Shown: positions 7,028-15,267 of the stretch, piece by piece
Numbering within the stretch: position 1 is the first letter of the stretch
Layout of the letters: each line of letters opens with the position of its first letter
From: an uncultured Oscillospiraceae bacterium
Lineage (GTDB): Bacteria > Bacillota > Clostridia > Oscillospirales > Oscillospiraceae
Length of the DNA: 33,302 bases
Direction of reading: 5' to 3'
Assembly: GCA_905205085.1 (NCBI GenBank)
Contig: CAJLCG010000018.1
Location: 1-33,302, forward strand
Notes under the pieces: generated by a model
The model's database searches: none
What the model was told of the DNA's origin: nothing
The model's input: only the letters and a program-made list of their open reading frames with translations
Translations under genes and position numbers: made by a program

Positions 7028-7062
7028 AAAAAAACGACGGAGCAAATGCTCCGTCGTTTTTT
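7028..7062. terminator. Bidirectional terminator between malQ and ftsH
   Basis: Stem 7035-7043 with 7048-7056, flanked by A6-7 and T6, with an AAAT loop. It can serve both malQ (+) and ftsH (-), whose stop codon is two bases away. Confidence 0.93.
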
Positions 7063-7063
7063 C

Positions 7064-9247
<2,184 letters not shown>

Positions 9248-9332
9248 ATGAGAATACCTCCGTCGCTTGTTGACACAAAAAAATGGGGAACCAGAGCTTT
9301 TTGCCCCAGTCCATGGTCGATTAGCAGTCACT

Positions 9333-9361
9333 ACTATACCACACTCTTCCTTTAAAAACAA
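9333..9361 (-). promoter_or_regulatory. ftsH promoter, extended -10
   Basis: On the minus strand, TTGTTT (9361-9356), 17 bases, then TATAGT (9338-9333) preceded by TGG. The leader is about 80 bases. Confidence 0.75.
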
Positions 9362-9416
9362 GAAAGAGTGCTGTAAACTTTCTGTGAAACCCTGCCGCCG
9401 GGGCACAATTTTTCCC

Positions 9417-9499: not shown

Positions 9500-10285
9500 A
9501 TGAATAAACGTCCCCCCCTGCGCCGCTCCGCCCCCATCGAGGCGGAAAGCGACGGCGTGATCGAGGGCCGCAACGCGGTCATCGAGGCACTGCGCGCCGG
9601 CGTTACCATCGACAAAATCTTCATCGCCAAGGGCGAGACTGACGCTACCTTGGGCCATATCGCCTCCACCGCCCGGGAAAAGGGCATCGTGGTGGTGGAC
9701 GCCGACCGGCGCAAGCTGGACGGCATGAGCCGCACCCACTCCCACCAGGGCGTCATTGCCCTGTGCGCCGTGCGGGAGTACGTCACCGTAGACGATATCC
9801 TGGCCATCGCCCGGGAGAAGGGGGAAAAGCCCCTGATCGTGGTGTGCGATGAGCTCAGCGATCCCCACAACCTGGGCGCAGTCATCCGTACCGCCGACGC
9901 CGCCGGAGCCCACGGGGTCATCATCCCCAAGCGCCGCTCCGCGGGACTCACTGCCGTGGTGGCCAAGACCTCCGCGGGCGCAGTGGCCCACGTGCCGGTG
10001 GCCCGGGTTCCCAACCTGGTAGCCGCCCTGAAGGAGCTTCAGCAGGCGGGCGTGTGGATCTTCGGCACCGCCGCCGAGGGCACCACCTCCCTCTACCAGG
10101 CCGATCTGAAGGGCCCCGCCGCCATCGTCATCGGCAGCGAGGGAGACGGCATGGGCCGCCTGGTCACGGAGAACTGCGACTTCACCGTCTCCATCCCCAT
10201 GTTCGGCAAGATCAACTCTCTCAACGCCTCGGCCGCCGCCGCTGTGCTTCTCTATGAGGCGGTGCGGCAGCGCGTGGGCGGATAA
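9500..10285 (+). CDS. rlmB: 23S rRNA (guanosine-2'-O-)-methyltransferase RlmB, SpoU family
   Basis: Uses S-adenosylmethionine to 2'-O-methylate a guanosine in 23S rRNA (G2251 in E. coli). The 261 residues contain an N-terminal L30e-like RNA-binding part (GVIEGRNAVIEAL near residue 20) and the C-terminal SPOUT knot. All three SpoU motifs are visible: SDPHNLGAVIRTADAAGAHG, VIGSEGDGMGRLV and IPMFGKINSLNASAAAAV. The ATG at 9500 follows GGAGG at 9485-9489. It is the first gene of a three-gene run with the ATPase-like membrane protein and the acetyltransferase. Related TrmH-family enzymes act on other RNAs, but the full N-terminal domain favours RlmB. Confidence 0.95.
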   Translation: MNKRPPLRRSAPIEAESDGVIEGRNAVIEALRAGVTIDKIFIAKGETDATLGHIASTAREKGIVVVDADRRKLDGMSRTHSHQGVIALCAVREYVTVDDILAIAREKGEKPLIVVCDELSDPHNLGAVIRTADAAGAHGVIIPKRRSAGLTAVVAKTSAGAVAHVPVARVPNLVAALKELQQAGVWIFGTAAEGTTSLYQADLKGPAAIVIGSEGDGMGRLVTENCDFTVSIPMFGKINSLNASAAAAVLLYEAVRQRVGG

Positions 10286-10318: not shown

Positions 10319-12586
10319 ATGCGCCAGCGTGACAAAGAAAAACCCAATAAAACCAACCCGGAGAATACCAAGCAGCCCACCCAGGAGCCCTCGGAAGAAA
10401 TCTATTCTCTGGAAGATATTTTGGCGGAATACGGCACTCGGCGCAGCACCGTGCGCACCGCCGTCCCTGTGAACTCCCCCCTGGATTCCCAGCCCGAGGG
10501 CAAGGTGCTGGCATTCCCCCGCCGCCAAGCCCAGCCTCAGGAGGAGCCGGAGGAAGAGGAGCAATCGGACCAGCCCGAGCCCCCCTCTGACTCGGACCAG
10601 CCGTCTCAGGAGGAGGAAACGGACGACTCCCAAGAAGAGGACGAGCCGGAAGCATCCCAGCCCCAGGAGGAAGAGGAACCACCCGAGGAGGACGACTCCG
10701 GCGTGGTGGAATTCCCCCCGGAGGAGAGCCTGCTCTCCTCTCTGCTCAAGCGTCTGGGCCGCAAGGCCGACCGGTATGCCGACCAGATGTTCCAGGAGTC
10801 GGAGGAGATGGACGAGGAGGAGATCCGCCGTCTGGAGGAGCTGATCCCCGGTACAGACCAGGAGGATGAGCCCGCCGTTCCCCCGACCCCCAGCCTGCTC
10901 TACCGCCTGCTCCACCGCCCCCGGCGGGAGGAGCCCATGCCCGAGGACATCGCCCCCCAGCAGTTGGCCCGTACATACGGAAAGGGGCTCAAGGGACTGC
11001 GCATGCGCTCCCTGCTTATTTTCCTGCTGGCTGTGGTTTCCATTGTCCAGCTGGTGGTGCCCGCCCTTAACTATGTGTGGCTTTCCCCTCTGGACGACTA
11101 TCAGATCCAGGTCTGGATCGCCTGCGGCCTGCTGGGCGCGGGCTTTCTCCTCTCTGTGGACGTACTGATTACCGGGCTGGCCCGGGCCTTCCACGGTAAA
11201 GTGGGTATGGATACCCTGAGTGCCCTGTCTGTGATCTTCACCCTGGCCGACGGTCTGGTGCTGGCCATGGTACAAAACCGGGAGGGCCAGCTGCCCTACA
11301 CCGCCCCTGTGCTGGTGGGCCTGTTTTTCCTGACCCACGGGGCCTACCACAAAAAATGCGGACTTCGTCTGGCCTGCCGCACGGCCGCCGCGGCGGCAGA
11401 GCCCTATCTGCTCACCTTGGACGAGGGCAAGTGGAACGGCCGGGACACCTACTGCAAGTGGTCCAGCGTCCCCAATGGCTTTGGCAGCCAGATTCAGACC
11501 GACGACGGGGCCCAGCGGATCTACCGCCGCTTCTGTCCCATTCTGCTGCTGGCCTGTCTGCTGTTCTCTCTGCTGGCCTCGGCGGCCGCCAATCGGCCGG
11601 AATACCTTCTGTGGTGTCTGTCGGCCACCTTCACCTCCGCTGCCGCCTTCGGCAGCGCCCTGGTCTACGGCCGGCCCTTCCATAAGCTCACCCGCCGTCT
11701 CTCCCACACCGGCGCGGCCCTGGCCGGCTGGCCCGGACTGGCCCAGACCCGGAAAGGGGACCGGGCCCTCATCACCGACGGCGACCTGTTTCCCCCGGGC
11801 TATGTGGAGTTCAACGGCATCAAGGTCTTTGGCGACTACTCCATTGAGCGGGTGCTCAGCTACACCGCCACCCTGATCCGGGACTCTGGCAGCGGCTTAA
11901 CCAAGCTCTTCTACGACCTGCTGCGGGCCCAGGGCGGCCTGTTCCGCCAGGCCGACCACCTGTGCTGCTACGAGGGCGGCGGCCTGTCCGCCAACATCCG
12001 CGGCTATCAGGTGCTGGTGGGCTCCGCCTCGTTTATGAACCTGATGGAGGTCCCCCTTCCCCCGGGCCTGAACGTGAAAAACGCCGTGTTCTGCGCCATC
12101 GACGGGGATCTGGCCGGTATCTTCGCCCTCAATTACAGCCTGCCCGATGGAGTGTTCCCCTCTCTGGACGCCCTGCTGCGGGAGAAGGTGGGCCCGGTGC
12201 TGGCCACCCGGGACTTTAATATCATCCCCGCCATGCTTCACCAGCGCTTCAAGCTGGCCTCGGATAAGATGGACTTCCCCCCGGTGGAGCGCCGCCGGGA
12301 GCTGTCCGACCCGGAGCAGCCCCATAATCCTATCCTCACCGGCGTGCTGTGCCGGGAGGGCCTGGTGCCCTATGCGGACACGGTGGTAGGCGCCCGTCGC
12401 CTGCGCCGGGCCACCCGCTTTGGCGCCATCCTCACCTGCGTGGGTTCCACGGTGGGCGTGCTGCTGGCCTACTACCTCACCGCCGTCACCGCCTTTGGTT
12501 CCCTGTCCCCCCTGAACCTGCTGATTTTCCTCATCACCTGGCTGCTCCCGGTGTGGTTCCTTACCAGCTGGGTGCCCCGGTATTGA
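10319..12586 (+). CDS. P-type ATPase-like membrane protein lacking catalytic motifs
   Basis: A 755-residue protein I do not recognise by name. Residues 1-225 are hydrophilic and very acidic (Glu/Gln/Pro-rich at 70-135). Membrane segments follow at about 231-250, 264-289, 299-318, 328-345, 405-423 and 428-450, with a final pair near 702-722 and 731-751. Order and spacing resemble a P1B-type ATPase: two helical pairs, a short actuator-like loop, another pair, a cytoplasmic catalytic region, a last pair. Stretches such as YEGGGLSANIRGYQVLVGSA (551-570) and AIDGDLAGIFAL (593-604) look like its nucleotide and phosphorylation domains. Yet DKTGT is replaced by ITDGDLFPPG (485-494), TGES is absent, and TGD and GDGxND are replaced (ATRDF, 629-633). 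It therefore probably cannot form the phospho-Asp intermediate. It starts 33 bases after rlmB (AAGGAG at 10307). Function is unknown; a sensor, scaffold or channel is possible. Confidence 0.72.
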   Translation: MRQRDKEKPNKTNPENTKQPTQEPSEEIYSLEDILAEYGTRRSTVRTAVPVNSPLDSQPEGKVLAFPRRQAQPQEEPEEEEQSDQPEPPSDSDQPSQEEETDDSQEEDEPEASQPQEEEEPPEEDDSGVVEFPPEESLLSSLLKRLGRKADRYADQMFQESEEMDEEEIRRLEELIPGTDQEDEPAVPPTPSLLYRLLHRPRREEPMPEDIAPQQLARTYGKGLKGLRMRSLLIFLLAVVSIVQLVVPALNYVWLSPLDDYQIQVWIACGLLGAGFLLSVDVLITGLARAFHGKVGMDTLSALSVIFTLADGLVLAMVQNREGQLPYTAPVLVGLFFLTHGAYHKKCGLRLACRTAAAAAEPYLLTLDEGKWNGRDTYCKWSSVPNGFGSQIQTDDGAQRIYRRFCPILLLACLLFSLLASAAANRPEYLLWCLSATFTSAAAFGSALVYGRPFHKLTRRLSHTGAALAGWPGLAQTRKGDRALITDGDLFPPGYVEFNGIKVFGDYSIERVLSYTATLIRDSGSGLTKLFYDLLRAQGGLFRQADHLCCYEGGGLSANIRGYQVLVGSASFMNLMEVPLPPGLNVKNAVFCAIDGDLAGIFALNYSLPDGVFPSLDALLREKVGPVLATRDFNIIPAMLHQRFKLASDKMDFPPVERRRELSDPEQPHNPILTGVLCREGLVPYADTVVGARRLRRATRFGAILTCVGSTVGVLLAYYLTAVTAFGSLSPLNLLIFLITWLLPVWFLTSWVPRY

Positions 12587-12605: not shown

Positions 12606-13127
12606 ATGATTCGTCCCGCTCAGCCCCAGGACCTGCCCGCCATTGCCGCCATCTACGAGGCGATTCTGGCCCAAGAGGACGCCCGCCCGGTCTCCTTCAC
12701 CAACTGGCAGCGTGGCAAATATCCCACCGAGGACACCGCCCGTGCCGCCCTGGAGGCGGGCACCCTCTTCACCGCAGAGGAGAACGGAGAGGTGTACGGC
12801 TGCGTCAACCTCAACGGGGAGCAGCTGCCTGAGTACGCCAATATCCCCTGGCAGTACGCCGCCGGGGACGATGAGGTGGGGGTCATCCACACCCTGGTCA
12901 TCCACCCCGCCTGGTCGGGAAAGGGAAAGGCCCGGGAGCTGGTGGCCTTCTGCGAAGCGCACTGCCGCAAGCAGGGCAAGCGGGTCATTCGGCTGGACAC
13001 CTACGTGAACAACCAGCCCGCCAACACCATGTACCCCCGCCTGGGCTACCGCTTTGCAGGCACCAGTCATTTTCTCTTCCAGGGCTTCCTGCCGGAGGAT
13101 CTCAACTGCTACGAAAAGCTGTTGTAA
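12606..13127 (+). CDS. GNAT-family N-acetyltransferase
   Basis: A 173-residue acetyl-CoA-dependent acetyltransferase-type protein with the full GNAT order. The N-terminus IRPAQPQDLPAIAAIYEAIL is the usual first strand and helix. The acetyl-CoA site lies around VIHTLVIHPAWSGKGKAREL, where the family's Q/RxxGxG/A loop is read as WSGKGKA. The C-terminal half has LDTYVNNQPANTMYPRLGYR, typical of GNAT motif B. The gene begins 19 bases after the ATPase-like gene with AAAAAGGAGG as ribosome site, so the two are cotranscribed. The substrate cannot be deduced. Confidence 0.88.
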   Translation: MIRPAQPQDLPAIAAIYEAILAQEDARPVSFTNWQRGKYPTEDTARAALEAGTLFTAEENGEVYGCVNLNGEQLPEYANIPWQYAAGDDEVGVIHTLVIHPAWSGKGKARELVAFCEAHCRKQGKRVIRLDTYVNNQPANTMYPRLGYRFAGTSHFLFQGFLPEDLNCYEKLL

Positions 13128-13131
13128 CGAC

Positions 13132-13165
13132 AAAAAAGGAGTGGACCGAGGTCCACTCCTTTTTT
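13132..13165. terminator. Bidirectional terminator between the GNAT gene and bioY
   Basis: Stem AAAAAAGGAGTGGAC (13132-13146) with its complement (13151-13165) around a CGAG loop. A-tract and T-tract flank the GC part, so it can act on both strands. Confidence 0.93.
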
Positions 13166-13176
13166 ATTATTTTGAT

Positions 13177-13746
13177 TCAGAGTTGCAGCAGTCCTGCCTT
13201 CTCCAGCCGCCCCCGGATCATGGGACCCATGGTCATGGCCAGCGCCATTTTGACCAGGTCCCCCGCGATGAAGGGGATCACGCACATCCACAGGGCTGCC
13301 ATCACTCCGGTGTTGGTAGAGAAACAGAACCAGGCGGTTCCCAGGGCATAGCACACCGCGGTGCCCAGGATCATACCCAGCAGCTGGAGAATGCGGCTGT
13401 GGGTGTGGTCGATGACCAGACCGGCGATCACCGCCATGGGCAAAAACCCGATGATGTAGCCGCCGGTGGGACCGGCCAGCTTACCCAGACCTCCGGCAAA
13501 GCCGGAGAACACCGGCACACCTACCATACCGATGAGCATATAAACGATGTAGCTCACCGAGGCCCGCTTCCACCCCAGAAGATAGAGGGTAAAGTAGATC
13601 ACTAGGTTGGTAAAGGAGATGGGCACCTCTCCAATAGGAATGGACATGGGGGCCAGCACGCAGGTCACCGCCGTCATTACGGCGATCATAGACATCACAT
13701 AGATTTTTCCCCGGCTGCTGGCGGTAGGGGCGGGCGATTGGGTCAT
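13177..13746 (-). CDS. bioY: Biotin transporter substrate-binding subunit BioY
   Basis: Membrane S-component that captures biotin and delivers it to an ECF energy-coupling module. The 189-residue protein has six hydrophobic segments and BioY landmarks: PIGEVPISFTNL in the first half and GGLGKLAGPTGGYIIGF in the middle. The ATG at 13746 follows AAGGAAGGA; an upstream in-frame ATG at 13770 would place that ribosome site inside the gene. No ecfA, ecfT or biotin-synthesis gene is in the window, so the energy module must be shared from elsewhere, as is common in Firmicutes. It is transcribed alone from a strong promoter. Confidence 0.95.
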   Translation of the reverse strand: MTQSPAPTASSRGKIYVMSMIAVMTAVTCVLAPMSIPIGEVPISFTNLVIYFTLYLLGWKRASVSYIVYMLIGMVGVPVFSGFAGGLGKLAGPTGGYIIGFLPMAVIAGLVIDHTHSRILQLLGMILGTAVCYALGTAWFCFSTNTGVMAALWMCVIPFIAGDLVKMALAMTMGPMIRGRLEKAGLLQL

Positions 13747-13770
13747 TGCAGTTCCTTCCTTTCTCCGCAA

Positions 13771-13896: not shown

Positions 13897-13925
13897 TTGC
13901 ATTTTTTGCTCCCTTCCGGTATAAT
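13897..13925 (+). promoter_or_regulatory. Promoter of the SLH protein gene
   Basis: TTGCAT (13897-13902), 17 bases, consensus TATAAT (13920-13925). The transcript would have a leader of roughly 110 bases before the ATG at 14041. Confidence 0.82.
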
Positions 13926-13966
13926 ATTTTTTCAAGAAAAGGTAAAACTTTCTGATATCCCACCCA

Positions 13967-14010
13967 AAACCAGGTTTATCCTGGTTTGGTTCTCCGCCTT
14001 TTTGGGCGGA
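13967..14010 (+). other. Two hairpins in the SLH gene leader
   Basis: Hairpin one pairs AAACCAGG (13967-13974) with CCTGGTTT (13980-13987). Hairpin two pairs TCCGCC (13993-13998) with GGCGGA (14005-14010). Neither is followed by a T-run. They lie between the promoter and the ribosome site (AGGAG, 14031-14035) and could stabilise the mRNA, as long leaders do in other surface-protein genes. Confidence 0.5.
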
Positions 14011-14040
14011 AATGCTATCACATGTTTGAGAGGAGTTCCT

Positions 14041-15267
14041 ATGTTACTGCACTTAAAACGCGGTCTGACTGCCGCTTTGATTCTTGCCCTGACCCTCACG
14101 CTGGGGGTCCCCGCCCTGGCCGCCGACCCGCTGGCCAGCGGAGGCTTTGTAAAGGTCGCCATCTCTGCAAAAAATTCCGACTCTCCCACCCTGGACCTGG
14201 ATCTGGCCCTGTATCGCCGGAACAGCTCCAACGCCTTTACCAAGGTGGAGTCCATGGACTACGTCACTCCGGTCAACCGTCTGACCAAGGATATGACCTT
14301 CCAGCTCACCCCCCAGGCCCAGCAGGTCTCGCTGACGGTAGATTACCTCACCGACCTGAACGGGGACGGCGTGTATGAGCTGCTCAGCGGCCAGGATCGG
14401 CCGGTGGGCAACGTACTCTCCACCGACGGCACCCTCACCAGCGCCAGCAGCGGGGTATCCACCCAGCTGACCCAGGGCCGCACCTATTCCATCACCAGCA
14501 ATGATCTGCTCTCCCGGGGCCAGGCGGCCATTCAGGACCGCACCACCTCCGGTAGCGCCAGCTATCTTTCCGACCTGAGCAGTTCCACCTCTCAGGCCGA
14601 CTCCATCCTGTATATGCTCACCATCTCCTATCAGTCTTCCAGCGACAACAAGAAGTATGAGCAGTGCTACTATGTACACCTGTATGATCAGCTGCCTGCT
14701 CCTTCTGCTGCTGACTTCCGGGACATCTCCCCCAACGCCTGGTACTATGACGCGGTAGACTATGTGGTGTCTGAGGGCCTGCTCTCCGGCTCCACCCGCA
14801 GCACCTTCTCCCCTGATCAGAAGCTGTCCCGGGCCATGCTGGCTCAGACCCTCTACAACATCGCCGGTCAGCCTGACAGCACCATCAGCCACTACGACGA
14901 TGTGCCTCAGGAGCACTGGAGCTATGCCGCCGTCTCCTGGGTCACCAGCCAGGAGCTGATGGCCGGAACCAGCCCCAAGCAGTTTGCCCCTGATCAGAGC
15001 CTGACCCGTCAGGAGATGGCACTGACCCTGTTCCTGTACGCCCAAAGCCAGAAGATCTCCACCTCCCAGCGCGCCGACCTGAGCGTCTACGCCGACGAGG
15101 ACAAGGTGGCCGACTGGGCCCGCACTTCCATGGAGTGGGCCGTGTCGGAGGGTCTGCTGGCCGGCCGCACAGTGGGCGGCAAAACGGTACTGGACCCCAC
15201 AGGCAATGTGACCCGGGCCGAGTTCGCTGCGGTGCTGAAAACTCTGTGCCAGGACGTGCTGGCCTAA
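14041..15267 (+). CDS. Secreted protein with three SLH domains
   Basis: A 408-residue surface protein. Residues 1-28 form a signal peptide (basic LKRG, hydrophobic core, cleavage after ALA). The N-terminal half is a beta-rich Ser/Thr domain of no recognised family; it contains a calcium-loop-like DLNGDGVYE at 105-113. Three S-layer-homology domains follow at about 226-276, 285-336 and 346-408, the usual cell-wall polymer anchor (FRDISPNAWYYDAVDY; WSYAAVSWVTSQELMAG; WARTSMEWAVSEGLLAG). The ATG at 14041 is chosen because AGGAG lies five bases upstream and the signal peptide then begins at residue 1. It is monocistronic, with its own promoter and a UUCG-capped terminator. Confidence 0.92.
   Translation: MLLHLKRGLTAALILALTLTLGVPALAADPLASGGFVKVAISAKNSDSPTLDLDLALYRRNSSNAFTKVESMDYVTPVNRLTKDMTFQLTPQAQQVSLTVDYLTDLNGDGVYELLSGQDRPVGNVLSTDGTLTSASSGVSTQLTQGRTYSITSNDLLSRGQAAIQDRTTSGSASYLSDLSSSTSQADSILYMLTISYQSSSDNKKYEQCYYVHLYDQLPAPSAADFRDISPNAWYYDAVDYVVSEGLLSGSTRSTFSPDQKLSRAMLAQTLYNIAGQPDSTISHYDDVPQEHWSYAAVSWVTSQELMAGTSPKQFAPDQSLTRQEMALTLFLYAQSQKISTSQRADLSVYADEDKVADWARTSMEWAVSEGLLAGRTVGGKTVLDPTGNVTRAEFAAVLKTLCQDVLA

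Follow-up and report, generated by a model that had tools for sequence, protein, structure and literature searches.

The window analysed here (33,302 nucleotides of contig CAJLCG010000018.1, assembly GCA_905205085.1, from an uncultured Oscillospiraceae bacterium) carries, directly behind the rRNA methyltransferase gene rlmB, a gene for a protein that has kept the fold of a P-type ATPase and has lost most of the chemistry and the metal site of these enzymes. Computation further establishes its homology to P-type ATPases, purifying selection on the gene and a conserved genomic position. P-type ATPases are textbook pumps. We propose that the protein belongs to an unnamed family of pseudo-P-type ATPases, closest to the P1B-1 copper pumps and fixed beside rlmB in Oscillospiraceae and related Clostridia, which probably acts as a non-pumping docking or regulatory platform at the membrane.

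DSSP assignment of the predicted model gives eight membrane-length helices, in the P1B order that a preliminary description made from the sequence alone had proposed. A, P and N parts lie around these helices, which places the protein among the P-type homologues, with the A domain reduced to a remnant β hairpin. In the N-domain-like part, 109 residues superpose on the N domain of CopA (root-mean-square deviation, rmsd, 2.2). The superposition on P-type structures suggested earlier thus recovered the P-type fold whose absence would have spoken against homology. Among viral structures, the single match under E 0.001 was a giant-virus Ca-type pump (E 2.8e-4), and none was closer. The window protein scores above the curated cut-off of no Pfam or NCBIfam family, lacks an HMA match in the Pfam search and has no significantly scoring sequence match in the PDB. 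Given that 1929 database proteins are related to it at E<=1e-3 and that the family hidden Markov model (HMM) also reaches intact P-type ATPases, up to E 3e-30, the resemblance goes beyond chance; the profile comparison called for in the preliminary description therefore had a positive outcome. A few database entries name members copper ATPase, cation ATPase or HAD hydrolase, indicating that automatic annotation has already caught the likeness.

Motif loss was followed in 332 unique proteins (minimum 136.7 bits, window protein included, many of them close relatives), a set that drew on the best 120 of the 1929 and the best 120 of 240 listed matches. By hhalign, T486 occupies the column of the phosphorylated aspartate, and DKTGT is in place in 0/332 proteins, two DKTGT strings falling in N-terminal tails; the residue there is T in 165, D in 135 and another in 31 of 331 proteins. 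The neighbouring positions are far more uniform, with D or E at D489 in 324, F at F491 in 328 and P at P492 in 329 of the 331, and DLFPxG is a signature of the family. TGES is likewise in place in none of the 332 (three strings sit in N-terminal tails), and neither GDGxND, whose block is deleted from the window protein in the hhalign alignment, nor CPC, whose column in the fourth core helix aligns to AAF, occurs in any of them. The catalytic lysine column has R658 in the window protein, R or L in 302/330 and Lys in 2/330. The preliminary description had therefore rightly reported the DKTGT aspartate as replaced and TGES and GDGxND as gone, and no relative within the family carries the intact motifs that would have contradicted it. 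Its statement that TGD is gone was not confirmed: T630-R631-D632 aligns on T-G-D, and the family, having lost the glycine, reads TRD or TCD with D at the D632 column in 322/329 proteins. Loss of the catalytic chemistry is well supported, and we infer that the protein neither forms an aspartyl-phosphate nor works as a pump.

The gene is maintained. Its frame runs uninterrupted over 755 residues, in agreement with the earlier account, and the ratio of nonsynonymous to synonymous substitution rates (dN/dS; Nei-Gojobori without codon-bias correction) reaches 0.123 in the core when the closest locus, L001, is the reference; it drops to 0.055 in the P/N part and 0.038 in the A remnant, compared with 0.19 in helices 1-4, 0.32 in helices 5-6 and 0.44 in the tail. 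Evolution is thus slower in the P/N part and the A remnant than in most helices. Against 13 other loci the gene gives 0.23-0.43, with lower values for rlmB (0.07-0.21). Selection is purifying, the outcome that the dN/dS comparison proposed at the outset was meant to probe, and lost catalytic residues, an open frame and purifying selection together characterise a maintained pseudoenzyme. A decaying pseudogene would also have lost its catalytic motifs, and one listed genome (G155) has an internal stop; since all other listed genome matches have open frames, dN/dS is 0.12 and the new motif is conserved, we rejected decay of the whole family and regard it as exceedingly improbable for the gene. 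That the protein is a P1B-like pseudo-ATPase, maintained rather than decaying, is accordingly well supported by fold, profile homology, motif loss throughout the 332 proteins, dN/dS and near-universal presence at a single locus, which upholds the core of the preliminary description.

A whole-genome search placed the gene in 184/200 genomes of the host family. The remaining 16 have matches of at most 82 bits with a broader model; 14 of them have no rlmB match, the contig of G056 stops at rlmB, and that of G113 ends 285 bases past rlmB in a frame that starts with the family peptide FSLDDILAEY, so that true absence is confirmed in 0/16. Across 391 Clostridia genomes the broad model matched over the full length in 17, at 207-726 bits and in all 17 next to rlmB, and scored at most 104 bits elsewhere; the 19 fetched lower-scoring loci with a pump frame all carry DKTGT, TGE[SA] and GDGxND. 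Named hosts include Pseudoflavonifractor, Flavonifractor, Lawsonibacter, Caproiciproducens, Caproicibacterium, Vescimonas and Subdoligranulum. Upstream on the same strand, rlmB directly precedes the gene in 49/49 family loci with enough sequence, a count that omits L008, L016, L017 and L020 (at most 65 bases upstream); an overlap of the stop-to-stop frame with rlmB is seen in L091, L169 and L172, and L001 has a partial rlmB. Of the operon previously suggested, the rRNA methyltransferase is hence constant, whereas the acetyltransferase is local, a GNAT gene lying downstream in 14/53 loci. In 13/49 loci from several distant branches the gene is followed, on its own strand, by one for an EF-G paralogue (NF009381; two tested), and FtsH is encoded upstream on the opposite strand in 23/53; in Vescimonas fastidiosa the annotation of the locus reads ftsH, rlmB, hypothetical protein.

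The acidic region in front of the first membrane-length helix is about 220 residues long, close to the 225 first estimated. Near its start lies a peptide whose loose form, [FY]SL[DE]DILAE, occurs in 36/52 family N-termini, with visible variants in several of the 16 that do not match, and in 30/47 of the genome-search set. We considered the peptide as a shared recruiting tag and rejected this idea: a search of 16 genomes with the DNA pattern for [DE][DE]I[LF]AE returned the family plus otherwise unrelated frames.

The origin of the family was approached with a tree that comprised 55 sequences over 491 columns. The comparison alignments contained 12 and 7 pumps, which we class by their motifs as P2-like, Zn/Cd or Cu pumps. 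The family is a single clade (support 100/100), has a stem length of 4.48 changes per column and is placed inside the Cu-pump group (92/99), apart from the Zn/Cd-like and P2-like pumps. In another Clostridia family, an intact Cu-type pump directly follows rlmB in 5/14 genomes having rlmB (L174 and L228-L231, from G311, G334, G283, G222 and G256). This shared position suggests a relation, on which the tree gives no decision: a sister grouping with the rlmB-linked CopA is neither rejected nor supported (approximately unbiased, AU, test, p 0.407). Intact CopA after rlmB may be the ancestral arrangement; independent insertion of CopA beside rlmB is possible, too. Among 20 intact pumps checked (L174, L194-L209 and L211-L213, some with short flanks; L210, which has no pump frame, was left out), only L174 has rlmB near. 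In the five genomes the pump sits between rlmB and genes that by eye resemble ACT-domain and DUF711-type genes, and several other genomes of that family have such a pair, again judged by eye, directly after rlmB.

The pseudo-ATPase is most likely a membrane-held docking or regulatory module, a reading favoured by the slow evolution of the P/N part and A remnant relative to most helices, the loss of the metal path and the fixed tail peptide; the suggestion in the preliminary description that it could be a membrane sensor or scaffold of a new type is a reasonable conjecture. An old copper-type pump would have lost its catalytic chemistry and metal path, and its eight helices would now anchor the N/P-domain module at the membrane. 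Combined with the long acidic tail, in which the peptide [FY]SLDDILAEYG is fixed, that module could offer a platform for cytoplasmic partners. The constant rlmB and the frequent EF-G paralogue point to ribosomes and translation as a candidate link. A bolder version, which we consider speculative and rather unlikely, sees a housekeeping pseudo-pump carried by a whole bacterial lineage and descended from a copper ATPase that had settled next to rlmB. Having lost its chemistry, it would serve as a membrane dock that ties ribosome maturation or an EF-G paralogue to the membrane by way of its tail peptide, and it would form a separate branch of P-type ATPases that does not transport.

Several observations weigh against the docking proposal and the copper-pump descent. 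Over the whole chain, similarity to P-type structures is moderate (TM-scores 0.55/0.47) and deviations are large (rmsd 9-12 Å). The tree program warns of long branches, the stem measuring 4.48 changes per column, and the AU test does not reject a tree in which the family falls outside the Cu pumps altogether (p 0.441). Helices 7-8 are as constrained as the P/N part (dN/dS vs L001 0.053), and the cytoplasmic part exceeds the helices in entropy-based conservation by a modest margin (0.835 vs 0.734 in the close set, 0.474 vs 0.422 in the diverse set). The absence of the tail pattern from 605 other frames of at least 300 codons at the same loci (0/605) must be read with the facts that the pattern was derived from the family itself and that many of these control frames are spurious rather than genes. 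Operon neighbours need not interact. Finally, T630 and D632 are retained in the window protein, and a sister branch, from which the D in the phosphorylated-Asp column chiefly comes, still has mostly D there, in the context D-[AS]-x-[DE]-LFP and in no case DKTGT, which leaves room for some HAD chemistry or for Mg or nucleotide binding.

This last point opens the way to a residual enzyme, an altered HAD-type phosphotransferase or nucleotide switch that would use D489 or the sister-branch aspartate with T630 and D632. Conservation of the D489 and D632 columns, the nearly invariant LFP and the retained N-domain fold fit such an enzyme, but the deletion of GDGxND, a lysine column that is non-Lys in 328/330 and the lack of an aspartate at position 486 in the branch of the window protein make it quite unlikely. 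We judge it unlikely as well, if less so, that the protein is a regulatory subunit or sensor tuning an intact P-type ATPase of the same cell, for instance as the dead half of a dimer: the shared fold would permit pairing, and 8/8 genomes examined have 3 to 10 E1-E2 ATPase domain matches, yet the gene that stands constantly beside it is rlmB rather than one for a pump, and the protein has lost the metal ligands and the A domain. A part in spore formation is suggested by spoIVA, found in 169/200 genomes of the host family and, as a raw overlap, in 163/184 gene-positive vs 6/16 gene-negative genomes. However, the 16 gene-negative genomes are uninformative, because they either have no rlmB match or end at or near rlmB, and 21/184 gene-positive genomes, some perhaps incomplete, have no spoIVA match; we consider a spore protein very unlikely.

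Compared with its closest known relatives, the P1B-1 copper pumps CopA and ATP7B (PDB 4bbj, 3rfu, 7si6), the pseudo-ATPase is without the phosphorylated aspartate, TGES, the catalytic lysine, GDGxND, CPC and SEHP, and it has an A-domain hairpin, a long acidic tail, no HMA match, and DLFPxG for DKTGT. The intact rlmB-linked CopA shares position, strand and P1B type with it, but keeps all catalytic and metal motifs along with the HMA motif and has different genes downstream. With the HAD superfamily hydrolases (PF00702) the protein shares a HAD-type P domain and the TGD region in the form of TRD, while the other motifs are lost and PF00702 is matched by 1/28 diverse family members (E 0.0015). 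KdpB, the P1A-type pump subunit of KdpFABC and an active enzyme, is a weaker structural match than the P1B pumps. The literature searched, in which subscription papers were thinly covered, describes no pseudo-P-type ATPase, and the same is true of passages of the review PMC10654040. A lineage-wide pseudo-pump at a single locus, with a new signature at the most conserved spot of its superfamily and perhaps an intact counterpart in the corresponding place next to rlmB, provides a clean case of the reuse of a pump fold and gives a testable function to a hypothetical protein of 184/200 genomes in one family.

Table 1. Features of the pseudo-ATPase locus in window coordinates.
Feature	Position	Strand	Basis
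rlmB, 33 bases upstream of pseudo-ATPase gene	9500..10285	+	TIGR00186
Pseudo-P1B-ATPase gene	10319..12586	+	open frame of 755 codons
Acidic N-terminal tail, about residues 1-222	10319..10984	+	sequence; weakly constrained
Conserved N-terminal peptide YSLEDILAEYG, residues 29-39	10403..10435	+	family N-termini pattern
Conserved pre-membrane stretch ADQMFQ...RRLEELIPGTDQED, residues 154-183	10778..10867	+	invariant columns in 19 sequences
Membrane helices 1-4, residues 224-356	10988..11386	+	DSSP of model
A-domain remnant, two strands without TGES, residues 362-382	11402..11464	+	DSSP of model, hhalign
Membrane helices 5-6, AAF in place of CPC, residues 397-464	11507..11710	+	model, hhalign
ITDGDLFPPG in place of DKTGT region, residues 485-494	11771..11800	+	hhalign, family alignment
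N-domain-like part, residues 494-607	11798..12139	+	structure superposition
TRD in place of TGD, residues 630-632	12206..12214	+	hhalign, family alignment
Membrane helices 7-8, GDGxND block missing just before, residues 682-750	12362..12568	+	model, hhalign
GNAT acetyltransferase gene, downstream of pseudo-ATPase gene	12606..13127	+	PF00583
Terminator-like hairpin, 15 pairs	13132..13165	+	pattern match only

An AAGGAG site lies in the 33 bases separating rlmB from the pseudo-ATPase gene. Terminator-like sites number 6 on both strands vs 2.9 expected, and the hairpin behind the GNAT gene is the only long one on the + strand. This hairpin is preceded by an A run and followed by a T run, faces on its other side a convergent reverse frame (13177-13770) that by eye resembles a candidate BioY transporter, and is possibly a two-way terminator. 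The protein of 13897-15267 (+) has putative S-layer homology repeats, again judged by eye, and a 769-codon frame at 7046-9355 (+), antisense to the ftsH frame at 7064-9406 (-), is probably a shadow frame of the kind that GC-rich DNA produces. Elsewhere, rlmB and the pseudo-ATPase gene stand on two plasmid-labelled records, L242 (NZ_AP023416.1, 860,917 bases, additionally carrying ftsH and groEL) and L243 (OY725837.1, 116,409 bases), which are perhaps chromosomal pieces or a secondary replicon. One relative (P0004; 94% identical, 746 aa) has, unlike all other listed relatives, precomputed IclR-type Pfam accessions and is perhaps a fused or mis-assembled record.
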